IMG/VR virus record: IMGVR_UViG_3300047564_001711
Location: 1 to 24,930 of that record
Source: a virus
DNA: 24,930 nucleotides
Direction: 5' to 3' (one strand)
Position numbers and translations under genes: made by a program. The notes under the pieces were generated by a model, which did not search any database, was not told where the DNA came from, and saw only the letters and a program-made list of their open reading frames with translations. How positions within the stretch are numbered: the first letter of the stretch is position 1; every line of letters starts with the position of its first letter. Shown in pieces: positions 5,311 through 20,009 of the stretch.

Positions 5311-5718
5311 TTATACAGTTCCGCGAGTTACTGAACCACTTACAGGCCAGGTTACTGATAGCGTTGCCAGATCCCCTACCGCATTTGCGAAAGGCTGGTA
5401 TTGAGTGACAACAGCTGTTCCAGAGTAGCTTGGGTTTGTTGCTGTTACAGTACCAGAAGTTGGCTTGATTGCCCATGCAACTGCTGATCCCAGAAGTGGG
5501 AATAGAGTTTGGTCAACTGAACCTGCACCAAAATCTTGCATAAAATCAAGAGTTAGCGAAGCATCACGAAGCCCAGCAATACGAGTTCTGTAAGTGTCAC
5601 CAAACGCCGTGGTTTCCTGCTCATCTGTGGTTATATCAAGCGTTACTGAGTTGAGCGATGCACTGAAATTGGCTGTGCCAATGGTAATTGCATAGTCCGT
5701 AGCAACAAACTTGGGCAT
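5311..5718 (-). CDS. major tail (tube) protein
   Basis: The protein has 135 residues, is beta-rich, and forms the repeating ring of the tail tube. Typical tube-protein features are the opening YAITIGTANFSASLNSV, then TDEQETTAFGDTYRTRIAG, SLTLDFMQDF and a closing LATLSVTWPVSG. The gene sits between the tail terminator and the chaperones, as in HK97-like phages. The Shine-Dalgarno AAGGAGAA lies 5 to 6 bases before ATG 5718 and overlaps the stop of the gene before it. This is one of the strongest ribosome sites in the window and fits a product made in many copies. Confidence 0.9.
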   Translation of the reverse strand: MPKFVATDYAITIGTANFSASLNSVTLDITTDEQETTAFGDTYRTRIAGLRDASLTLDFMQDFGAGSVDQTLFPLLGSAVAWAIKPTSGTVTATNPSYSGTAVVTQYQPFANAVGDLATLSVTWPVSGSVTRGTV

Positions 5719-5729
5719 TCTATTTCTCC

Positions 5730-6137
5730 TTAGTTAGAGTATACATTCACCGTAAACTCGGCTGCTAGATAGGTAGCGTCGTTTAGTTGAATGTTACCAA
5801 TGTTATCCAATGAAACAACACGAGTATCAAATGCCGCACCGCCTAAAGTCTTTGCAGATTCTATGGCAGTTTTGACACTTTGGTTGCCCGTGTTATCACA
5901 ATAATCATTCAGTTTCCGCTGGGCAATACGCTCAGCAGCCCTGCCAACAATTACCGTGACAATAAAAGTATACACCGCCAGACCTTTGCCAAAAGTCTGG
6001 TCGTAATTGATGCTGCGTAGATTTACTATGGCGATTGGTGGGTTTGGATTATCTGGTAATTCGCTGGCGGTTCTAAGACCAGTAATCGTTGCAAGATTGG
6101 TCGCTAGACCATTTCTCATATCGTCTATTGTGCTCAT
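5730..6137 (-). CDS. tail terminator / tail completion protein
   Basis: The protein has 135 residues and starts at ATG 6137 within an ATGA overlap with the connector stop. It opens with a helix (STIDDMRNGLATNLATI), then alternates beta strands (PPIAIVNL, VYTFIVTVIVGR, YLAAEFTVNVYS) with a helix around AAERIAQRKLNDYC, the alpha/beta layout of the lambda gpU/HK97 gp10-type tail terminators. It lies exactly between connector and tail tube, where that gene is expected. It should cap the finished tube and dock it to the head. Confidence 0.75.
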   Translation of the reverse strand: MSTIDDMRNGLATNLATITGLRTASELPDNPNPPIAIVNLRSINYDQTFGKGLAVYTFIVTVIVGRAAERIAQRKLNDYCDNTGNQSVKTAIESAKTLGGAAFDTRVVSLDNIGNIQLNDATYLAAEFTVNVYSN

Positions 6138-6730
6138 GCAAATCTTGGTTTCTTGAAAGCCATAATCAGGGCTTCCACGTCTGGATCTAGTTTGCCAACA
6201 CGCACAACACCGAGATCACCAAATCCAGCAACTCCAAGTGGGCTGTCGTTTCGCTTGTACAACCTACTAGCCATAATTATTGTTGCTTGCTTTATGGCAG
6301 TCGGCGTTGCAGACCAACCCCAAACGCCACGCACCTCTACAAGTGCCTCGCCTTCTTCAATCGGGAACAAATAGGTATCTCTAGATGTAATCCCTGTAAA
6401 TGGTGAGACAAAACCACTTACAAAACCATTTAGTGGTTCAAGCTGGTAATCTCCTGCGGACCAGGTAATTGTGTATTGTCCGTCGCCGTCTGGATCTGTC
6501 TTTAGATGTTCGATTGAAACCAAATCATCTATTTCACAAAAGTAGGGATCACGAGCTACAAATTTACGAGTAGCAGTACCCATGTTGTAAAAAGTTCGTT
6601 CGCAACTGGTATCAATTTCACGACTGGCAGCCTCAATAGACAGCTCTAGTATTGCGTCGTCTACGCTATCTGTAATTCGTAGACTGTTTTTTAGCTCTTG
6701 AAGTGAGCAATATCCATTACTTATCGGCAT
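6134..6730 (-). CDS. head-tail connector (adaptor) protein, HK97 gp6-like
   Basis: The protein has 198 residues. Its N-terminus (YCSLQELKNSLRITDSVDDA, then ILELSIEAASREIDTSCERTFY) is the hallmark helical pair of gp6/gp15-type head-tail adaptors, which form a ring under the portal. The following region is beta-rich, with PDGDGQYTITWSAGDYQLEP, and ends in a basic helix. The gene starts the neck and tail module directly after the sugar cassette, while the capsid gene it would normally adjoin lies more than 3.4 kb upstream. Confidence 0.85.
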   Translation of the reverse strand: MPISNGYCSLQELKNSLRITDSVDDAILELSIEAASREIDTSCERTFYNMGTATRKFVARDPYFCEIDDLVSIEHLKTDPDGDGQYTITWSAGDYQLEPLNGFVSGFVSPFTGITSRDTYLFPIEEGEALVEVRGVWGWSATPTAIKQATIIMASRLYKRNDSPLGVAGFGDLGVVRVGKLDPDVEALIMAFKKPRFA

Positions 6731-6734
6731 AGTT

Positions 6735-7286
6735 CTAGTCTATCGCCTGAAATACCAGCAGAATGTCGTCATATCGGCCTTTTTTGGTACGAAGGTCATA
6801 CAGGGCGACTAATTTCAAGCCTAGATTTTTGCCAGTTTTTGTAAGCATTTGAGCAACTTCCAAACTGATTATGTCTTCAATAAAGTAAATACCGCCTGGT
6901 TTTAGGCTTTTATAAAGTAGTTCCAGCGATACCTTCTGGTGATCGGGATTGTGGCTTCCGTCATCAATAATGTAATCAAACATCAAATTACCAATCGCTT
7001 TTTCTAATGAATCCTTATTGGTTGCATCACAGATTTTGGCATTTACCTCAAATTGTAGATTCGTAAGGTCAATGTCCAACCCAACGACATTTCCAGTAAA
7101 AAATTTTGCAAACATAGCCAAACTATGTCCCTGATACACACCAATTTCTAATAAATCTGCATCTGGTTTCAAAAATTTTTCGTAAATTTCAATGTAACTA
7201 TGTATTGTTCCCTTGTCACCGCCACCTTCTGGCCCCTGAAAAGACTGGTAAAGCGTGGTAAGGGTTACATCAGTTTGTTTGCCCAT
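6735..7286 (-). CDS. class I SAM-dependent methyltransferase, probable sugar O-methyltransferase
   Basis: The protein has 183 residues. GGGDKGTIHSYIEIYEKFL (about 22-40) matches the N-terminal signature of MycE/TylF-like sugar O-methyltransferases. LLEIGVYQGHSLAMF (about 45-59) is SAM-binding motif I, and VVGLDID and YIIDDGSHNPDHQ (about 109-121) provide the acidic and metal-site residues of this group. It probably methylates a hydroxyl on a sugar made or transferred by its three neighbours. The start overlaps the epimerase gene by 22 bases and has only a weak ribosome site. It is the last gene of the sugar cassette. DNA-methyltransferase motifs such as DPPY are absent, so a protein or sugar acceptor is more likely than DNA. 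Confidence 0.85.
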   Translation of the reverse strand: MGKQTDVTLTTLYQSFQGPEGGGDKGTIHSYIEIYEKFLKPDADLLEIGVYQGHSLAMFAKFFTGNVVGLDIDLTNLQFEVNAKICDATNKDSLEKAIGNLMFDYIIDDGSHNPDHQKVSLELLYKSLKPGGIYFIEDIISLEVAQMLTKTGKNLGLKLVALYDLRTKKGRYDDILLVFQAID

Positions 7287-8272
7287 GTTCTTGGTGTCTT
7301 GTCGTTTACGATTTCAAGATCCAAGTGGTATTCAAACTGTTTAGCGCCCTTGGCTTGAATCCAGTCCACCAATTCAGATAGTCCATCAGCCTGGGTCGTT
7401 TTGGCTTCGTATCCTAAGAGCCTACGAGCCTTCTCAGACGAGCAAAGGGCTATTTTGACCTCATTAGGTCTACCCTCTACGTAAATGGGCTCTAAATCGA
7501 ATCTGAGCCTTCTGGCGACCATTTCTGCAAGGGTCTGAATTGTGCAAGATTCAGTATCGGGGCCAACATTGATAATCTCGCCATTTGTTTCTTTCATTAC
7601 GCTTGCTTTATAAAGGGGTTCAACCACGTCAGTCACAAAGGTAAATGACCTTTTCTGCTGTCCGTCTCCATAGATAATCGGCTGCTTGCCTTGCAACATT
7701 CGATTGGCAAAGATACTGGCTACATTTCTAAAAGGGTCGTCATACTTCTGGCGACTTCCGATAATGTTGTGCGGAACAATAATCGTCCATTCAATTCCGT
7801 GTGTTTCACAAATGTTCTGAATCAGTTGCTCGGAAGCCAGTTTTGCTATTCCATATGGATCTTTTGGTTTTGGAACCATAGTTTCAGAAAACATTGTGCC
7901 CAGATCTCCATAGCGAGCCATAGAACTGAGGAATACAAATCGCTTGGCATTATTCTTGACCGCAGCAGTTACGGCATTGACCGTTGCCATAACGTTACTA
8001 TCTACGATTAGAGCTGGACTAAAAACTGAAAGACCTTCGTGCGCAAGAGCCGCCGAGTGAACCACCAAATCGGTATCGTCCCAAAAGGTTTGGTCAATAA
8101 CAGCTCTATCGGTTAGATCAAATTCATAGAATCTAACGCCCTCTGGAATGTTCTCGTAATCGCCACCAATCAAGTTATCAATTCCGACTACTTCCCAGCC
8201 CTCATCTAGGTATTTGTCGGCCAGATGTGAGCCGAGAAAGCCAGCCACGCCAGTAATTACTACTTTGCCCAA
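7265..8272 (-). CDS. NAD(P)-dependent sugar epimerase/dehydratase (extended SDR)
   Basis: The protein has 335 residues. TGVAGFLGSHLA (7-18) is the TGxxGFxGS dinucleotide-binding loop. DNLIGG follows strand 2, VVHSAALAHEG carries the cofactor loop, LSSMARYG (115-122) supplies the catalytic serine region, and YGIAK (140-144) is the YxxxK active site. SFTFVTDVV, INVGPD and a C-terminal RPNEVKIALCSSEKAR region are typical of UDP/GDP-sugar epimerases. It should make a nucleotide sugar used by the two glycosyltransferases. The start is TTG at 8272, chosen because AAGGAG lies 6 bases upstream and the nucleotide fold begins at once. Exact sugar specificity cannot be read. Confidence 0.9.
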   Translation of the reverse strand: MGKVVITGVAGFLGSHLADKYLDEGWEVVGIDNLIGGDYENIPEGVRFYEFDLTDRAVIDQTFWDDTDLVVHSAALAHEGLSVFSPALIVDSNVMATVNAVTAAVKNNAKRFVFLSSMARYGDLGTMFSETMVPKPKDPYGIAKLASEQLIQNICETHGIEWTIIVPHNIIGSRQKYDDPFRNVASIFANRMLQGKQPIIYGDGQQKRSFTFVTDVVEPLYKASVMKETNGEIINVGPDTESCTIQTLAEMVARRLRFDLEPIYVEGRPNEVKIALCSSEKARRLLGYEAKTTQADGLSELVDWIQAKGAKQFEYHLDLEIVNDKTPRTWANKLM

Positions 8273-8910
8273 GAGTTACTCCTTGTTCTTTGTAAATTCC
8301 ATTCACCACAAGAGAAGTCCTGGGCTTGGATTTTAGATTCATAATAGCTTTGATTTGCCACAAATGTAGCAGAATTCCTTTTGGCAAAATGGTCGTCTGA
8401 CTGAATTGTCGAGCTATTATCGTGACCACCAGCAAGGTCTAAATACGAAATTCCAATGCCCTCATTTTGAGCTCGTCTTGCATAATCGTTATCTTCAAAA
8501 TAAATCGGGTGAAGTGCCTCATCAAAAAGCCCTATTTTTTCCACCACTTTCTCGCCAATGGCGAATGTGTGCCAATGCGGAAATAATCTATGTAGTGAAA
8601 TACGCCCTGGGTCGGCGTTCGCTAACTTTTCTAAGTCTCCAACTCCAAACCACATATCTGCTGAGGCAAAATAAAACACATCATGCCGAAAGAAATTTTT
8701 GATACCGAGGTTCCAACTAGTTGCAACGCCCAAATTCGACAACATTGGCAAGACCCTGTACTCTTTGACAGTACTTGGAACTTGTAAATCAGCAAGTTTA
8801 CCACCATTGTCAATTATGAGCAGTTGCTCTATTGGGTAATCAATCGTATCCAGCATACGCTGGAGTAGGTCATACCGATTCAGTACTGGAATCGTTAGAT
8901 TGCTTAGCAA
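8260..8910 (-). CDS. GT2-like (GT-A fold) glycosyltransferase
   Basis: The core begins NLTIPVLNRYDLLQRMLDTI and continues LLIIDNGGK, the first strand and helix and the nucleotide-sugar loop of family 2 glycosyltransferases. VLPMLSNLGVATSWNLGI matches the conserved N-x-G-x-A-x-x-x-N stretch, FASADMWF holds the acidic residue where DxD usually stands, and YFEDNDYARRAQNEGIGI carries the catalytic-base ED/ND motif. TTG at 8910 is preferred because GGACGG lies 6 bases upstream and the fold starts there; another TTG at 8964 would enlarge the overlap with the previous gene to 95 bases. The DxD is reduced to SAD, so metal binding may be atypical. It acts with the adjacent GT-B enzyme and epimerase. 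Confidence 0.85.
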   Translation of the reverse strand: MLSNLTIPVLNRYDLLQRMLDTIDYPIEQLLIIDNGGKLADLQVPSTVKEYRVLPMLSNLGVATSWNLGIKNFFRHDVFYFASADMWFGVGDLEKLANADPGRISLHRLFPHWHTFAIGEKVVEKIGLFDEALHPIYFEDNDYARRAQNEGIGISYLDLAGGHDNSSTIQSDDHFAKRNSATFVANQSYYESKIQAQDFSCGEWNLQRTRSNSWAK

Positions 8911-10096
8911 AATAATCCGTCCAAAATGGTTGCCACTTTTCTTCCCAAATTTTTGAATCTTCAAAGTTACTGGCGAAATCTATGCTTGTCTGATCTACTC
9001 CTCGCTCGGCTTGATAAGCCAATTCAAGAGCTTGAACAATTCCGTCTATTGAAGGTATTTTGAACCATGCAACCTGTGGCTCGTCCCAGAAAGGCATGCC
9101 CTCTACTCGCCAACTATTTTTACTTACAAGGTCTTTGCTGGCTGCCCAATTACTGACGATTGCTCTTGTTCCGCAAGCCTGAGCTTCCATTGTTGGAACT
9201 CCAAACCCCTCTCCATAACTTGTTGCCAGTAATACATCAAATGCGGTATAAAGTGCAGCCATGTTCTCGCGACTTAGACCATAACGATAATCAGTCCAGT
9301 CAGGCAAGATAACCGTGTCTGCTGGAATACCACAAGCCTTGAGTAAGTTGGCTAGTCCAAAACCACCAGTAATCTTGCTGGGTTCAGAGTGGATATAAAG
9401 TTTGGCATTTGGGTATTTACGCTGAAAAATGCTAAATGCCAATATGTTTTCAGCAAATGCCTTTCTGTGAACTAGACCATTAGATTTATTAGCGGCTACC
9501 ATGCCGACCAAAAAATCATCATCGGCAATTTGTAAAAATTTACGAGTTGGCTCATTCCGTAATTCAAAAGTTGGTTTATAAACTTTCGTATCAATTACGT
9601 GAGGAATGTAGGTATTTTCAATACCAGCTAAATTTAGTTGTTCATGTCCATCTGGTGCCATGCTTATAACAGTTACATTGGGCTTTTTCAGGAACGCAAT
9701 TACGCTAGGCGGAAGCGTTACGTGATCAATCGGTGCCCAGATAACAACGTTTTCTTTGTCTAAATCTGGATAACCGTTATAAACCCAAGAATCGTAAAGG
9801 ACAAAAATGGCATTGGGTAAGTCTTTATGCTTAGATCTAAAGTGGTTGTGGTTCGCAGCCAAAGTATCTACTGAATAACCAGTAAAACTTCTTGGATAGT
9901 GCGTTGCTGTGCCAGCCTTGAGTTTCAGCGGTTGAATTCCGCTTTCGTTTCCGTAATTAGACATAATCGCAAGGGTCATGCCAGCTTTGAGCATACGATT
10001 CGACAGATACTCTGCTTGCTGTCCGTAGCCTGTTGGGACGCCAGGGCTGTTGCTGGCAAAAGATACTAAGCCGTTGATTTTATGGTTGATAGTCAT
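8870..10096 (-). CDS. GT-B fold glycosyltransferase, family 4-like
   Basis: The protein has 408 residues. The C-terminal half has the diagnostic EGFGVPTMEAQACG (296-309), with the two glutamates of the E-x7-E nucleotide-sugar site. The N-terminal half begins with a strand and loop, SPGVPTGYGQQAEYLS (18-33), typical of the acceptor-side domain. AAPDG-like and FLVGMVAANKSNGLVHRK (195-212) mark the interdomain region. It is the first gene of the sugar cassette, about 75 bases past the capsid stop and just after a terminator hairpin. No clear Shine-Dalgarno precedes ATG 10096. The acceptor is unknown: capsid or tail protein, or host envelope glycan. Confidence 0.9.
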   Translation of the reverse strand: MTINHKINGLVSFASNSPGVPTGYGQQAEYLSNRMLKAGMTLAIMSNYGNESGIQPLKLKAGTATHYPRSFTGYSVDTLAANHNHFRSKHKDLPNAIFVLYDSWVYNGYPDLDKENVVIWAPIDHVTLPPSVIAFLKKPNVTVISMAPDGHEQLNLAGIENTYIPHVIDTKVYKPTFELRNEPTRKFLQIADDDFLVGMVAANKSNGLVHRKAFAENILAFSIFQRKYPNAKLYIHSEPSKITGGFGLANLLKACGIPADTVILPDWTDYRYGLSRENMAALYTAFDVLLATSYGEGFGVPTMEAQACGTRAIVSNWAASKDLVSKNSWRVEGMPFWDEPQVAWFKIPSIDGIVQALELAYQAERGVDQTSIDFASNFEDSKIWEEKWQPFWTDYFAKQSNDSSTESV

Positions 10097-10107
10097 AACA
10101 GCACATT

Positions 10108-10136
10108 AGCATAAAAAGAAACCCAGCTGGCATCAA
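10108..10136 (-). promoter_or_regulatory. candidate promoter for the sugar cassette, embedded in a terminator
   Basis: TTGATG (10136-10131, in the loop of the capsid terminator), a 17-base spacer and TATGCT (10113-10108) form a 4/6 plus 4/6 sigma70-like pair. A start near 10101 would leave about 5 bases before ATG 10096, a nearly leaderless message, consistent with the missing ribosome site. This is pattern evidence only. Confidence 0.3.
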
Positions 10137-10151
10137 CCAAACCAGCTGGGT
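10112..10151 (-). terminator. Rho-independent terminator after the major capsid gene
   Basis: On the minus strand ACCCAGCTGG (10151-10142) pairs perfectly with CCAGCTGGGT (10130-10121) around an 11-base loop and is followed by TTCTTTTTAT. It begins 20 bases past the capsid stop. The hairpin is symmetrical and could also end plus-strand transcripts, although no plus-strand gene is seen. Confidence 0.85.
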
Positions 10152-10170
10152 CTCGCTTTTTACATCAGGA

Positions 10171-11328
10171 CTAAGAAGCAGCCCCGATGAAGTAGTTAAC
10201 GTGACTTGAGTGAGTCAGGTTTCCGTCTAGACGAATCAGGAATCTCCAGGTCGTCAGGTCGGTGTTGAAGGCGTAGTCCTGCGAAGAAGCAACCTGTAGG
10301 CCACCAGCAACACGAACCTTGTAGCTTGGGAAGTGGCCAAATAGAACCGACTTCACCGAAGTACCTGCGTTGCTCATAGCTGGGTTTTCAATTACAGGGA
10401 AGCCAGCAAAGGTGTCTGGCTGTCCAACGCCTACCTGGTAAAGGTAGTTTCCAGCGGTGTCCTTGAGTTTTCTCATCGCACCAATCGAACGACCATTTGC
10501 CATGTATCCAACACCAGGAAGTCTGCGAACAGCTCCGTCAATGTTGTTGTAGGCAAGGTCAATTAGGTTGTCAGCGGTGAAAGCACCAGATACGCCAGTT
10601 CCACCAACTAGACCAGATCCAGCAGCGGTAACGATACCACGTGGCTCTACAGTTCCAGTTCCAACGGTCATTGCATTGTTTACTGCAAAACCAATGGCGT
10701 TACCAGCTTGCTGAGCAAGGTGAGAAGCTAGGTCGAAACCTGCGTCTGCAACTAGCTCGTTTGCTGCCTGGATTAGGAAACCATACTTGTAAGCACCAAG
10801 AGTGATAGAGCTGTAAGTTGGGTCACTTGCATCTAGCGCAGAACCAGCTGCCTTGATTGAAGCAGTTGAGTAAGCGGTAAGGGTTGGGATGGTCAGGTCT
10901 TCACCAGAAGTGGTATTGATTACCTGAGAAACATCAAGCATAGGACCGACCAGGCGAGCAATATCAAATACCTCGTCAAAGAATGACTTTGGTACTGTGT
11001 TGGTGCTTGGTACGAGAGTACGCTTTTCGAATGTGTGAGATCCACGAGTGTTGGCAATCTCACGAAGAACGTCAGTTGCGGAACGCTCTGAAACAACTGG
11101 GGTGAATCCCTTAGCTGCTACAGAAAGCTCTGCCTTACGCTCCTCGTTGCGCTGAGCAACAGCGATTGTCTCGTCAGTGCGAGCAATATCTGCCTCAATG
11201 CGCTCAATTTTTTGTAGGTCTTCTGCAGTTAGTCCACGCTTGCCAGCCTCAGCTGTATCAATAACCTCACGAATCTGCTCGGTTAGGTTAGCGCGCAACT
11301 CTTGCTGAGTCTTTACAAATTCAGACAT
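10171..11328 (-). CDS. major capsid protein (HK97 fold)
   Basis: The protein has 385 residues. Residues 1-70 are a charged helical segment (TAEDLQKIERIEADIARTDE), the delta scaffold domain removed by the capsid protease. The mature part begins around 95-110 and has the phage-capsid family pattern: FFDEVFDIARLVGPM, EDLTIPTLTAYSTASI, KYGFLIQAANELVADAGFDL, and the C-terminal LFGHFPSYKVRVAGGLQV with TTWRFLIRLDGNL. It forms the icosahedral shell. AAAGG lies about 10 bases before ATG 11328. Strong hairpins stand on both sides of the gene, so its message is probably bounded or stabilised separately from its neighbours. Confidence 0.96.
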   Translation of the reverse strand: MSEFVKTQQELRANLTEQIREVIDTAEAGKRGLTAEDLQKIERIEADIARTDETIAVAQRNEERKAELSVAAKGFTPVVSERSATDVLREIANTRGSHTFEKRTLVPSTNTVPKSFFDEVFDIARLVGPMLDVSQVINTTSGEDLTIPTLTAYSTASIKAAGSALDASDPTYSSITLGAYKYGFLIQAANELVADAGFDLASHLAQQAGNAIGFAVNNAMTVGTGTVEPRGIVTAAGSGLVGGTGVSGAFTADNLIDLAYNNIDGAVRRLPGVGYMANGRSIGAMRKLKDTAGNYLYQVGVGQPDTFAGFPVIENPAMSNAGTSVKSVLFGHFPSYKVRVAGGLQVASSQDYAFNTDLTTWRFLIRLDGNLTHSSHVNYFIGAAS

Positions 11329-11755: not shown

Positions 11756-11974
11756 TCAAGTTGTTATCTTTAGCTCTGTCTTGACCCATTCCCAGAAGTC
11801 GTCGGGGTCTATAGCGCTATTCTCAGACGCCCTTAGTTCTCGCTCTCGCAGTCGTCTAGCCTGTTTCCATCGGTTATAGTGAAGAGCCTCATAGTGACTG
11901 CGACACAGCGATTTAGCATGTTGGGGTTTATCACATTGAAGATTTACGCATTTTCGATTTTTTCTGTTAGGCAT
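11756..11974 (-). CDS. small predicted zinc-binding protein
   Basis: From ATG 11974 the product has 72 residues. CVNLQCDKPQHAKSLCRSHY (10-29) has Cx4C then Cx2H spacing, a short zinc knuckle found in many small actinophage proteins and at the N-termini of some phage HNH proteins. A basic helix follows (RWKQARRLRERELR), then an acidic tail. The start is fixed by GGGAGGG 4 bases upstream; a longer frame to 12079 lacks such a site and would read through a hairpin. No HNH active site is present. A nucleic-acid-binding role is inferred from the knuckle and basic helix. A possible TGTTATAGT extended -10 lies at 11993-12001. Confidence 0.7.
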   Translation of the reverse strand: MPNRKNRKCVNLQCDKPQHAKSLCRSHYEALHYNRWKQARRLRERELRASENSAIDPDDFWEWVKTELKITT

Positions 11975-11992
11975 TTGACCCTCCCAAAAATT

Positions 11993-12001
11993 ACTATAAC
12001 A
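11993..12001 (-). promoter_or_regulatory. candidate extended -10 element
   Basis: TGTTATAGT has a TGn extension and a 5/6 match to TATAAT (TATAGT at 11998-11993). No good -35 box lies at 16-18 bases. A start near 11986 would place the GGGAGGG ribosome site at the very 5' end of the message for the small zinc-binding protein. Confidence 0.3.
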
Positions 12002-12048
12002 AGGACTAAATTTTTGTGATAGATTTACGACCATAACTAAATAGACTT

Positions 12049-12098
12049 CCCCCGTTGGTTCGTGTCCATACTCTTCCATAATCTCCGACCAACGGGGG
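12049..12098. terminator. 11-base inverted repeat with T-rich flank on the plus side
   Basis: CCCCCGTTGGT (12049-12059) pairs perfectly with ACCAACGGGGG (12088-12098) around a 28-base loop. On the plus strand it is followed by TTTTAGTTTTTA, which resembles a terminator; in the minus reading direction of the genes no T run follows. It may block antisense transcription or form a structured leader ahead of the zinc-binding gene. Confidence 0.5.
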
Positions 12099-12375: not shown

Positions 12376-13890
12376 TTATGCCTTCTTGATCAGTGTTTCT
12401 AGTTTTTTCTTTTTGAGAGCAAGCCAAGCCTGACCATCAAATTCGTCCTGTGTTTCAGTAATGTCTGGTGCAAGCGTGTCTAGGACTTTGGTAATAAGTG
12501 ATTTTTCTTCAATCGTCATGTCCATACCAGATTCAATTTTTAGTAAAGCATCAGCCAGTTGGTCTGCATCTACATCTGCTCGCTCAGCAATTCTGTCTAA
12601 TCCACGAACCGAGGTTGTGCCATTTGTCGCTGTATAGGCTGGGAAGGCCACGATACTGACTTCGTGAAGTCGAACTTGATTTAGGGTTCGTTCGGTTCCG
12701 TTCTCATTCCAACTATCGCCATTCTTTGGAACGCTAAAACCAAAACTCATAGCGCTAACATCTCCACGCCTAATCAGTTCGGCTGTATCTCTACCTAGCG
12801 TTGTGTTCGGCAACATAGCCCTTACCTTCAAGCCCCTATCGTCTTCTTCAAGATAGAGAGTTTTGGCACGAGTAGATCCAAGTACTGCTCCCGTATCGTG
12901 ATTCCAAAGCATTTTTATGTCATTTCGCATACGTAAACTGCCTCGGAAGGCACCAGGGGCGATACGCTCAACAAATGGCAGGGGTTCACTTGGGCTGTTG
13001 AAAACAGCAGCGTAACCTTCGAACATCATTCCGCCAGTTTCGTCCTGACGAATTTCAAACTCAGTCGTGTGTATGCGAGTTTCTATCTTTGACAAGGCTT
13101 CACCTTTCGCTCTGCCTTCATTTTCTGCTTCAATTCTAGTTACTACCCCTTCGGCATAATCAAGAGCTCGCTGAGCTGCTCTCTTTGAAGGCCCTGATCC
13201 CCAAAGTAGGTGAGCAACTACTCCTGGGCTTGGATAATCTTCGTGACCTGGTTGTGCTGAGGGAACATCTAGGTCTACCAAGTGTCTAGCAATCCAAGCA
13301 CGAATACGAACCCACTTATCCGCGGTCACAGTTCCGTTTGCCATAGCTCTCGCCTCACGTATGGTTCTATCTACTAATCCGTCTCCACCTAGACCCTCTT
13401 CGTAATAACGAAGCCCTTGCCTCGCGGCTGCCCTCATATAGGCAGGTGGGGTTAGATTCACCTGGCGCGTCTCGGATCTAAGTGAGTCAATTTTTGTAAG
13501 CGTTGAAAATCTATGTCCAACTAAAACATCTGTTTCTTCCCAGCCGTCTTCACCTTCACTCCAAATACGGATTAGGGCTGTTGGGTTATCCTCACTTGCT
13601 TCAAGCGTAAAATCGCTATCTGGAACATTCAAAGTTCCCTCGGTAATTATTCTTTCAATCTGACCCCTGGCTCTTCCACCAGACGAGTTCCAGCTAACAA
13701 AATCGCCGACTTCTAAATCCCCTGCCATAGCTCGTTCTCCACCAGGCTCGATATCCTCAGCAATACTGACAGCAACCATTTGGTCTATGGCTTCCTGCTT
13801 TGTATTGTGGCAACCAATTACCTCGCCGTCTTCCTTTTCCACTGCCCAATTTGTACATTCTGGGTTGTCGTTTGTAATGTAATAAGGCAT
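12376..13890 (-). CDS. capsid maturation protease fused to Tudor-like and other N-terminal domains
   Basis: The protein has 504 residues in four parts. Residues 1-52 (ECTNWAVEKEDGEVIGCHNT, then KQEAIDQMVA and EPGGE) form a small domain seen at the front of phage head proteins. Residues 61-112 (GDFVSWNSSGGRARGQIERI) resemble the HVA1/DUF2945 Tudor-like barrel. Residues 150-255 (AAARQGLRYYEEGLGGDGLV, then WVRIRAWIARHLVDLD and GVVAHLLWGSGPSKRAA) form a helical domain common in actinophage proteases. Residues about 270-425 are the S78 HK97 prohead protease with FEGYAAVFN, H331 in LWNHD, S382 in SAMSFGF and E410 in LHEVSIV. It cleaves the capsid delta domain. HK97 protease is about 225 residues, so this is more than twice the usual size. 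Confidence 0.92.
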   Translation of the reverse strand: MPYYITNDNPECTNWAVEKEDGEVIGCHNTKQEAIDQMVAVSIAEDIEPGGERAMAGDLEVGDFVSWNSSGGRARGQIERIITEGTLNVPDSDFTLEASEDNPTALIRIWSEGEDGWEETDVLVGHRFSTLTKIDSLRSETRQVNLTPPAYMRAAARQGLRYYEEGLGGDGLVDRTIREARAMANGTVTADKWVRIRAWIARHLVDLDVPSAQPGHEDYPSPGVVAHLLWGSGPSKRAAQRALDYAEGVVTRIEAENEGRAKGEALSKIETRIHTTEFEIRQDETGGMMFEGYAAVFNSPSEPLPFVERIAPGAFRGSLRMRNDIKMLWNHDTGAVLGSTRAKTLYLEEDDRGLKVRAMLPNTTLGRDTAELIRRGDVSAMSFGFSVPKNGDSWNENGTERTLNQVRLHEVSIVAFPAYTATNGTTSVRGLDRIAERADVDADQLADALLKIESGMDMTIEEKSLITKVLDTLAPDITETQDEFDGQAWLALKKKKLETLIKKA

Positions 13891-17636: not shown

Positions 17637-18075
17637 TACGTCTTGCCATTAGTTCTTCTAGTTTGCTTTGCGCTTTGACCTCAGCCACGCCAAGTCTTGT
17701 TCTATCGGCAGGAGTAAAACCTAAAAGCGATAAATTCTCTTGAATTAGCTTTGTTAGCTGATTTAGATTGCGCCTGTCCTTCGAATCTTCGCCCTGTAAG
17801 ACCTTGGCTCGTAAATTCCAGCGCTCATCTATCATTTCGCACGTAATAAGCAAAATTTCAACGTCTGTTGTGGGGCTTACCCACGTAGCACCAGCAAGCC
17901 ATACCCTGTCCCATAACTCACGACCTGGTTTGCCCAGTGGTCGGGTTGGTTCTGGGATCTGAGTTGCCATAGGCAGAACTTGAATCGTGCCAGACTTGGG
18001 GATTGCCCGCTTTCCTGGGTTACCCAGCATCCGCTTTTGTTCTAATGGCTTTGGCGGTCTACCTTTATTTGGCAT
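17623..18075 (-). CDS. terS: terminase small subunit, P27 family
   Basis: The protein has 150 residues. The opening GRPPKPLEQKRMLGNPGKRA is the signature of P27-type small terminases, followed by PRPLG-like RPLGKPGRELWDRVWLAG, a helical core EILLITCEMIDERWNLRAKV, and the C-terminal LLGFTPADRTRLGVAEVK. It recognises the packaging site and stimulates the large subunit. It overlaps the large-terminase start by 14 bases and the glycosyltransferase end upstream by 11 bases, so the three are translated together. Confidence 0.93.
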   Translation of the reverse strand: MPNKGRPPKPLEQKRMLGNPGKRAIPKSGTIQVLPMATQIPEPTRPLGKPGRELWDRVWLAGATWVSPTTDVEILLITCEMIDERWNLRAKVLQGEDSKDRRNLNQLTKLIQENLSLLGFTPADRTRLGVAEVKAQSKLEELMARRNEKQ

Positions 18076-18952
18076 TGTTCTTGTAGTTCTCCACGACCTT
18101 AGCCAAATGTGCCGATTTGATTTCAGCTTGTTGTATCAGCTTTAGGTCTAATTTTTCATTTTCTATTGCTGACCAATCAATATCATCTCGCCTTATCAGG
18201 GGAGTATCAAATTGTGTCCAGATTTTCTTCACGTGATGTTGTGGTCGCTGATACTTGCGTTTGGTTTCGACAACATAAGGCCAGTTTCGCTCCAGACTAC
18301 GAGCCATTTCCAGTCTGCCGTCACCTGCATACAGTTGGTCTGTATTTCCGCCCTTCATTGTCATAGTTCGGGCTTTTCGGATCATATAGATGTTGAATAA
18401 CACTGTTGCCCAGTTATTTGATAGAACTTGAAGGCATAAATCTGTATCTTCGTTGTATCTCCCACGCCATTCAAAAGGAATATCGTTTTTGATAAGCAGG
18501 TTTGAATAAACACGACAATTACGAATGTAGGGCGTTGGTTTCCAAAAGGCAAAGGATTCATAATTCATACCAGCAACAGCTATGTTGGTGTATCTATCTA
18601 CAAACTTCTCTATCTCAGTTATGGCTATGTTTGCGTTTATTGCCACCCTTCGACTTTCCCAATAGAACGAAGTTCGGCTGATGTTGTCGTCCCAGATCCA
18701 ATGGCGTTCGGCACCACTGGCCTTAGCATCTTGCCAAACCCAGTTTCGAGCTGGGATAGAACCTAGACCTAAGTTGCTGAATGGTAAGGTGACGATAATT
18801 TCTTTTGGGTAATACTTGGCATAGTCTTCAAATTCTTGTGGTTCTACAACCAATTTGAACGGCACTTTGTCTTCGACAAACATTCGTGCAGTAAGGCAGA
18901 TGTCAGCCCTACCTTTGCTGATTACATAAACGGGATATTTAGGCTTCTTCAT
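18065..18952 (-). CDS. TET-associated-type (GREB1-like) glycosyltransferase, possible DNA-base glycosyltransferase
   Basis: The protein has 295 residues with a GT-A-like layout. The opening PVYVISKGRADICLTARMFV has the first strand and helix, LVVEPQEFEDYAKYY the second, GSIPARNWVWQDAKASGAER (64-83) leads to HWIWDDNISRTSFY (84-97) with the metal-binding acidic pair, WRGRYNEDTDLCLQVL (162-177) holds the catalytic ED motif, and MTMKGGNTDQLY (197-208) closes the site. This pattern matches the TAGT group described by Aravind and co-workers, linked to glycosylation of modified bases in phage DNA. It lies between a double ParB protein and the terminase. No TET/JBP oxygenase or pyrimidine hydroxymethylase is in the window, so DNA as substrate is inferred. 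Confidence 0.78.
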   Translation of the reverse strand: MKKPKYPVYVISKGRADICLTARMFVEDKVPFKLVVEPQEFEDYAKYYPKEIIVTLPFSNLGLGSIPARNWVWQDAKASGAERHWIWDDNISRTSFYWESRRVAINANIAITEIEKFVDRYTNIAVAGMNYESFAFWKPTPYIRNCRVYSNLLIKNDIPFEWRGRYNEDTDLCLQVLSNNWATVLFNIYMIRKARTMTMKGGNTDQLYAGDGRLEMARSLERNWPYVVETKRKYQRPQHHVKKIWTQFDTPLIRRDDIDWSAIENEKLDLKLIQQAEIKSAHLAKVVENYKNNAK

Positions 18953-20009
18953 CTATGCCGAACCTAATGTTTCGTATGTCTTCACGCTCACGCTCAGGCC
19001 ACCAAATTGACCAGACCGCACCTTGCTTGGCATTTACAACAGTTGCGCCTATCAGTTCCATAAACCTTTGCCTGTCGTCTTCGTCTTCAAAGCGAACATT
19101 TATCGTTGGATAGTTTGGGCGAGGTTCCCAGTCGGCCATTCCGACCCATTCGGCTGCCGTATCTTGAGTTTGCATTTCGCTGGCTGGTCTGGTTGTAAAG
19201 GCGAGCGCCGCTAACTGATTCTCGTCAAAACCTGTTCCCATAAGAGCACCGTTGCCCTCAATCTCCAGTAAGCCTTTCAGCAGTTCAGTCAAAGCCCTGT
19301 CGTTCACTTTTGCCAAGTTATTTATTTCATTATCTGAGGTCATAACCTTTAGGGCTTTTGGATCATCAGAACTTATGTCTAATTTGATTACTGGAACTCG
19401 TTTTTTACCCATTCGCTTGGCTGCTTCAACTACTCCGTGACCTGCAAGTATGGTGTTGTCACTAGCTACTACTACGTTTCTGTAAAAACCGTGCTGACGA
19501 ATGCTGGCTTGGATTTGCTCTAGCTGAGAATCGGGGTGGGTCTGGTAGTTTCCTGGGTGGGGTTTGAGGTCTGCGATATTCATTCGAACCATTTGAAACG
19601 GATTAGCTTGCCACTCGACCAAATCGTCCAGTTCGTCCTGAGTAAAACCTACGATGTCGGGATTCCAGTCAGCAAGTTGTAAATCAAAAAGTTCGTCTAT
19701 CAGTAGTTCGGTATTCCAGTTTGAAAGTTCGCTGGTTCTGTTGTCGGCTATTGCAAACGCTTTGATTTTGTCCTCAGTCCAGTCGGCTGGTATTTCTACG
19801 ACTTGGATCTCAGTCCAGCCAAGTTCACGAGCAGCTTCGACTGTGCCGTTACCAGTAACGACAAGGTTGGCTTTGGTGACCACAACGGGCTTGCGCTGAC
19901 CGAAACTATCTAGCGACTGTTTTATGGCTTCTATTGAGCGTTTATCGTGTTTTCTGACGTTTTCTGGGTCTAGCTGTAATTTGGCTAGTTCGATTGTTTT
20001 GAGTTCCAT
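18939..20009 (-). CDS. ParB-like protein with two tandem ParB/sulfiredoxin-fold domains
   Basis: The protein has 356 residues. Domain one (about 1-130) has LDPENVRKHDKRSIEAIKQS, then FGQRKPVVV and VVTGNGTVEAARELG (50-64). Domain two (about 137-270) repeats the plan with LKPHPGNYQTHPDSQLEQIQ, HGFYRNVVV and ILAGHGVVEAAKRMG (187-201). A C-terminal alpha/beta segment follows (YPTINVRFEDEDDRQRFMEL, then WSIWWPE). Single or double ParB domains are common beside phage terminases and methyltransferases, where they may bind DNA, hydrolyse CTP or cut DNA. GAAGGAG lies 5 bases before ATG 20009. Partition is unlikely because no ParA is visible. Confidence 0.9.
   Translation of the reverse strand: MELKTIELAKLQLDPENVRKHDKRSIEAIKQSLDSFGQRKPVVVTKANLVVTGNGTVEAARELGWTEIQVVEIPADWTEDKIKAFAIADNRTSELSNWNTELLIDELFDLQLADWNPDIVGFTQDELDDLVEWQANPFQMVRMNIADLKPHPGNYQTHPDSQLEQIQASIRQHGFYRNVVVASDNTILAGHGVVEAAKRMGKKRVPVIKLDISSDDPKALKVMTSDNEINNLAKVNDRALTELLKGLLEIEGNGALMGTGFDENQLAALAFTTRPASEMQTQDTAAEWVGMADWEPRPNYPTINVRFEDEDDRQRFMELIGATVVNAKQGAVWSIWWPEREREDIRNIRFGIDEEA

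Follow-up and report, generated by a model that had tools for sequence, protein, structure and literature searches.

What are four genes for sugar-handling enzymes doing between the major capsid protein (MCP) gene and the head-tail connector gene of a phage? The question was raised by the virus record IMGVR_UViG_3300047564_001711, an incomplete record of 24,930 bases, which was analysed at its whole length and is called the window here. The four open reading frames (ORFs), all on the minus strand, separate the MCP gene from a gp6-like connector gene. Starting from MCP, they encode a GT-B glycosyltransferase (GTB), a GT-A glycosyltransferase (GT2), an SDR nucleotide-sugar epimerase/dehydratase (SDR) and an O-methyltransferase (MT). 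They likely form a modular capsid-glycosylation locus, in which GTB would prime an O-glycan on Ser238 of MCP and GT2, SDR and MT would extend and cap it, the extension module being recombined between phages. Phage virion glycosylation is known from few isolates, and its commonness and variability are little understood. In the present locus, a single site shared by small aquatic phages of a widespread group would combine a stable primer with an extension module that can be swapped and with a residue predicted to be the acceptor.

A sequence-only reading of the window had proposed a four-gene glycosylation set at this site. The ORFs lie where it placed them, and Pfam and PHROGs agree with it, the PHROGs labels being glycosyltransferase, galactosyl transferase, nucleotide-sugar epimerase and methyltransferase. 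GTB combines the GT-B fold with the EX7E pattern (E296 and E304) of GT4-like retaining enzymes and is thus, by fold and motif, a GT4-type retaining glycosyltransferase. Among the 102 family members, H210-R211-K212 and E304 are invariant and E296 is present in 101. The AlphaFold 2 model of GTB (pLDDT 87.8) has fold matches including MshA, BshA, PimB' and B736L of chlorovirus NY-2A (3oy2), the last being the top PDB match by both sequence and fold. GT2 scores exactly at the cut-off for Pfam Glycos_transf_2 and has a confident GT-A fold (AlphaFold 2 pLDDT 94.5, GT-A structural matches). The closest solved relative of SDR is the UDP-glucose 4-epimerase 4zrm, and SDR fits no NCBIfam equivalog. The earlier call of a MycE/TylF-like O-methyltransferase was upheld, as MT is nearest to 8ia9 (demethylmacrocin O-methyltransferase, TylE) and to 3ssm (MycE). 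The relation to the MycE/TylE catalytic domain covers residues 26-140 only, and the N-terminal part of these enzymes is missing in MT. MT is most likely a sugar O-methyltransferase akin to the macrolide-sugar enzymes TylE/MycE, with a predicted sugar-methylating activity.

The same site was compared in related phages. Searches of IMG/VR with capsid and GTB queries gave 242 loci (labelled L below) having both MCP and connector, and dereplication at 97% MCP identity plus same architecture left 128. These show 34 architectures, and 22 out of the 128 are empty, MCP and connector being about 41-107 bases apart. Where cargo is present, it nearly always starts with GTB, adjoining MCP. The genes behind it include GT2a (the subtype of the window) or GT2b, a second GT-B (X2 or Y1) and another GT-A (X3). 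Further cargo comprises SDR, an RmlD-like SDR, X1 (CTP_transf_like, akin to TagD), several methyltransferases and a TOD1/MUCI70-like transferase. The cytidylyltransferase X1 accompanies GT2b in 37 out of 38 loci and GT2a in none of 19 (Fisher 3e-14, uncorrected for kinship), and among the loci with GT2a or GT2b SDR was found solely with GT2a. This pairing fits transferases travelling with their donor-making enzyme, and both pairs, GT2b with the cytidylyltransferase and GT2a with SDR, are useful for working out the donors. Related genes at the same site in relatives support the earlier idea that the enzymes produce a sugar, transfer it and methylate it, with the virion as target. The search for the same cassette there, proposed earlier as a check, gave sugar-enzyme cargo whose make-up varies from architecture to architecture. 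It is barely credible that the site is a non-specific moron hotspot whose genes are passengers without a virion role. The cargo is highly variable and the site is occasionally invaded by HNH genes (L007, L362); however, the cargo consists almost only of sugar enzymes across all architectures, in fixed order and with functional pairing, and 101-102 out of 102 GTB sequences retain the catalytic residues.

The sequence-only reading had also taken the cassette to be acquired as a self-contained unit, which comparison of close relatives does not support. L018, L019 and L057 have MCPs that are 100% identical over the aligned part and connectors that are 98.8-100% identical. Their cargo is GTB-X2-GT2a-SDR, GTB-X2-GT2b-X1-MT and GTB-X2-GT2b-X1, respectively. 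When L045 is compared with L058/L055, the stop codon of GTB marks exactly where identity breaks off, and it is regained 12 bases ahead of the start of the connector gene. At least 19 changes of cargo state are required on the MCP tree (78 loci). The correlation of distances with those of MCP (Mantel rho) was 0.63 for GTB, 0.52 for the connector, 0.40 for GT2b and 0.18 for X1; within the GTB-GT2b-X1 architecture the values were 0.80, 0.66, 0.42 and 0.16, respectively. Because of these module swaps and the GTB-MCP distance correlation, the four-gene set is best described as one stable gene for the primer together with three exchangeable ones: GTB is quasi-core and tracks MCP, and the exchange of GT2, SDR and MT does not depend on GTB. 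We give even chances to a further step, capsid glycotype switching. Here the priming transferase would be inherited together with the capsid, act on one particular Ser/Thr of it and be combined with a recombined extension module (a second transferase with its own donor-making enzyme) bordered by the GTB stop and the connector start. Such recombination would give phages that are otherwise identical a different coat sugar, similar to the exchange of bacterial capsule or O-antigen genes. Homing endonucleases, as suggested by the HNH genes inside the site in two loci, could drive module exchange.

If GTB is inherited with MCP, does MCP carry a matching acceptor? The tree built from 126 MCPs requires a minimum of six changes in GTB presence, and six of its clades are GTB-less; an earlier independent-pairs test had too few contrasts, and extra empty loci had therefore been sought. 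Each alignment column and residue class was scored for presence in GTB-carrying loci and absence in the six GTB-less clades. Position 238, in a loop that follows the conserved GDGxxxPxG, scores 0.96: it is Ser/Thr in 98 out of 102 GTB-carrying loci, whereas the 24 GTB-less loci all have Ala, Glu, Gly or Leu, and Ser/Thr is missing there in each of the six clades. The runner-up, Thr323, scores 0.68, and outside the Ser/Thr class the highest score is 0.60. When six clades of matching size and stem length were drawn 2000 times, 0.955 was never reached, whatever the column or class (mean best 0.51, maximum 0.85). In 20 GTB-less records, no copy of GTB was detected at other places by a query that recovers the window's own. 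Several loci among the GTB-less phages carry GT2a alone (L087 and L088, also L051, L052, L054 and L065). Since they have Glu at position 238, the residue goes with GTB and not with GT2. The association of Ser/Thr238 with GTB is statistically strong, the dependence of the acceptor on the transferase is predicted from it, and residue 238 is presumably exposed at the surface.

Several observations weigh against Ser238 as the acceptor of GTB. Four GTB-carrying loci lack Ser/Thr at 238; L178 and L180 have it one residue earlier (AASD/AATD), and L132 and L239 are real exceptions with GTB intact. L184, a distant phage in a metagenome-assembled genome (MAG), possesses GTB and has Ala at 238. N-terminal columns of the head maturation protease also score high (0.79), which is attributed to the variable domain make-up of a region that is not interpretable. 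B736L, the top fold match of GTB, is without proven capsid role (PMC9614988), and its similarity to GTB may reflect no more than the common GT4 fold. In addition, the independent-pairs sign test on six pairs (4.4/6 in favour, none against, median p 0.125) was not significant, and the case therefore rests on the permutations and on the identity of the residue, a type that accepts O-glycans. Two other leads were rejected. Thr134 of the major tail protein was promising in a small set and failed in the large one. Match lengths had hinted that the C-terminal residues of MCP differ in empty and filled loci, and this difference vanished on alignment.

The cassette might instead glycosylate another virion protein, such as the major tail protein, the connector or a tail fibre, with MCP 238 covarying for a structural reason. 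We regard this as unlikely. Virion glycosylation in mycobacteriophages was reported on capsid, tail or both, according to PMC11652166 on Freeman et al. 2023, and the GTB-carrying loci without Ser/Thr238 would be in agreement with another target. Nonetheless, a structural cause would need to have affected this one residue on six occasions, and only in the absence of GTB. Moreover, neither the major tail protein nor the connector, tail terminator or portal has a column resembling MCP 238; this comparison did not extend to tail fibre and tape measure. Of the two targets proposed earlier, the capsid is hence supported through MCP Ser/Thr238, and the tail is not.

For a glycan primed on MCP, the following order of steps is proposed. 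GTB, made late with the structural proteins, would put the first sugar on the surface Ser/Thr of MCP, GT2 would add a second sugar whose nucleotide donor SDR would make or alter, and the MycE/TylE-like MT would O-methylate the glycan. All steps would be cytoplasmic and would occur late, while the capsid is being made. The GTB-MCP pair would be the stable core, and the genes lying between GTB and the connector the exchangeable extension module, whereby phages with the same capsid could carry different glycans. We infer the existence of the glycan and its chemistry from the genes. It would probably serve altered adsorption, protection (capsid-binding factors, grazers) or evasion of recognition by host or competitors. 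If this is true, phages can alter the surface chemistry of a capsid that itself stays unchanged, and the prediction of Ser238 makes the target of a phage capsid glycosyltransferase directly testable.

The gtr serotype-conversion clusters, too, are variable glycosyltransferase modules carried by phages, and their first part is conserved. Like them, the enzymes of the window could modify the host envelope (wall polysaccharide, teichoic acid) and block superinfection or reinfection, which appears quite improbable. Some relatives do carry the TagD-like cytidylyltransferase, an enzyme type that makes CDP-glycerol for teichoic acids, and glycosyltransferases of freshwater actinophages were suggested to alter the cell wall or to protect DNA (PMC10202952). 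However, gtr clusters target the host O-antigen, and their gtrA/gtrB and membrane transferases are absent from the cassette: none of its four proteins has a transmembrane stretch, and no Pfam match to a GtrA flippase or GtrB bactoprenol transferase was found among its genes. The genes are embedded in the late structural operon, GTB tracks MCP closer than the connector does, and the association of Ser/Thr238 with GTB is not expected from envelope modification.

Glycosylation of phage DNA by these enzymes, as part of TET/TAGT hypermodification, is very improbable. The window does hold a TET-associated glycosyltransferase, TAGT (PF20691, 1.9e-43), at 18065-18952 beside a ParB-domain gene. However, TAGT lies 8 kb from the cassette, which adjoins the capsid gene, and occurs in only 6 out of 24 related records, independently of GTB: it is present with Tet_JBP in the empty L099 and L090 and missing in most GTB-carrying genomes. 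Tet_JBP was not found in the incomplete window record, and the cassette holds no combination of TET/JBP with TAGT. The TAGT and ParB-domain genes (18065-20009), upstream of the terminase genes, are likely a second, DNA-directed glycosylation system.

The proposed capsid glycosylation resembles known systems in part, the cassette carrying phage-encoded glycosyltransferases among structural genes as expected for virion glycosylation. Mycobacteriophages glycosylate capsid or tail, which lowers antibody binding (Freeman et al. 2023, as given in PMC11256854 and PMC11652166). Che8 and others are actinobacterial phages with phage-encoded glycosyltransferases and O-glycans on capsid and/or tail, to which the window is comparable in its genes, its probable host and its proposed glycan. 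Methyltransferases related to MT occur in some mycobacteriophages, and no mycobacteriophage relative of GTB was found. The transferases of mycobacteriophage Maravista (F1) are encoded close to the genome's 3' end, whereas those of the window lie between MCP and connector. Unlike mycobacteriophages, the window group swaps its extension module between near-identical phages and has a single predicted acceptor. Chloroviruses (PBCV-1, NY-2A) also decorate their MCP by virus-encoded glycosyltransferases, with methylated sugars (PMC9614988), similar to what is proposed here; however, their glycans are N-linked, their host is eukaryotic and a clustered exchangeable module is lacking. The literature searched, which left most subscription journals outside, contained no description of the exchangeable locus or of residue 238.

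The nearest sequenced phage with a known host is phiPsal1 (MG835450; Pontimonas, Microbacteriaceae), with identities of 65% for MCP, 54% for GTB and 45% for GT2. It possesses the same site with the gene order GTB-MT(-)-GT2. Different from the window, phiPsal1 has no SDR, and its methyltransferase is unrelated and on the opposite strand. The genome paper does not discuss the phage further, and the locus is undescribed there (PMC6106888). The phage itself has since been lost. WhiB, a marker of actinophages, was found in 10 out of 15 related records and not in the incomplete window. Because of the host of phiPsal1 and the presence of WhiB in relatives, the host is probably an aquatic actinobacterium.

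A bacterial donor of GTB was searched for in one scan of genome collections and rejected, as the scan gave no more than eight relatives, all weak or distant, with identities not exceeding 42%. The four better ones are phages again, since the ORFs of their contigs also match MCP, protease or other phage structural genes. Very distant HK97-type phages with a GTB relative directly after or close to MCP were also found in MAGs of other phyla (L185, positions 5704-8440 of a Steroidobacteraceae MAG contig; L187; L184).

Table 1. Features of the capsid-connector region of the window (positions in the 24,930-base record)
Feature	Position	Strand	Evidence
gp6-like head-tail connector, right border of exchange site	6134-6730	-	Phage_connect_1; phrog_442; swap breakpoints of relatives 12-13 bp before start
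MT, MycE/TylE-like sugar O-methyltransferase (predicted), 183 aa	6735-7286	-	Methyltransf_24; 8ia9 2.7e-9, 3ssm 4.1e-8
SDR nucleotide-sugar epimerase/dehydratase, 335 aa	7265-8272	-	Pfam Epimerase 1.1e-53; 4zrm 9e-48; TGVAGFLG and YGIAK motifs
GT2 (subtype GT2a), GT-A glycosyltransferase, 216 aa, proposed second-sugar transferase	8260-8910	-	Glycos_transf_2 at cut-off; phrog_29879 5.5e-50; GT-A fold
GTB, GT-B GT4-like glycosyltransferase, 408 aa, proposed priming transferase on capsid	8870-10096	-	Glycos_transf_1; EX7E; fold
Intrinsic-terminator-like hairpin with T tail, 3' of MCP gene; core feature	10112-10154	-	sequence (hairpin 10154-10118)
MCP, HK97 fold, proposed acceptor	10171-11328	-	Phage_capsid 2.6e-50; phrog_10; RcGTA capsid match
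MCP Thr323 codon, weaker second candidate site	10360-10362	-	Ser/Thr in 86/102 GTB-carrying loci; lost in 5/6 GTB-less clades
MCP Ser238 codon (loop TAAGSG), predicted O-glycosylation site	10615-10617	-	GTB association, clade-matched permutations

The features that had suggested acquisition as a unit were also examined (Table 1). The gene overlaps are 41, 13 and 22 bases, as in the sequence-only reading, given a GT2 start at TTG 8910; an alternative, longer TTG start lies at 8964, and with the longest-ORF start the first overlap becomes 95. Together with the TTG starts, these overlaps are weak evidence of joint acquisition. The GC content of the cassette genes (0.38-0.45) matches that of their neighbours (0.40-0.50), so the genes are not foreign-looking and a foreign composition was rejected. 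The terminator described before the cassette is a real hairpin with a T tail, and such a hairpin follows MCP in 97 out of 103 GTB-carrying loci. As a border of the cassette it was discarded, because 17 out of 22 empty loci have it too; it belongs to the capsid gene. Plausibly, it lowers the expression of the genes after the abundant capsid message. Its loop is conserved (most often TGTAGGTT; TTGGTTGAT-like in the window) and its stem varies freely, as if the loop were read by something.

On the other side of the capsid gene, a small HNH-like ORF with weak PHROG matches (11756-12079) lies just before MCP. The head maturation protease (12376-13890) has a long N-terminal part with a variable domain make-up, including Hva1_TUDOR, DUF2188-like and other domains, which differs among close relatives.

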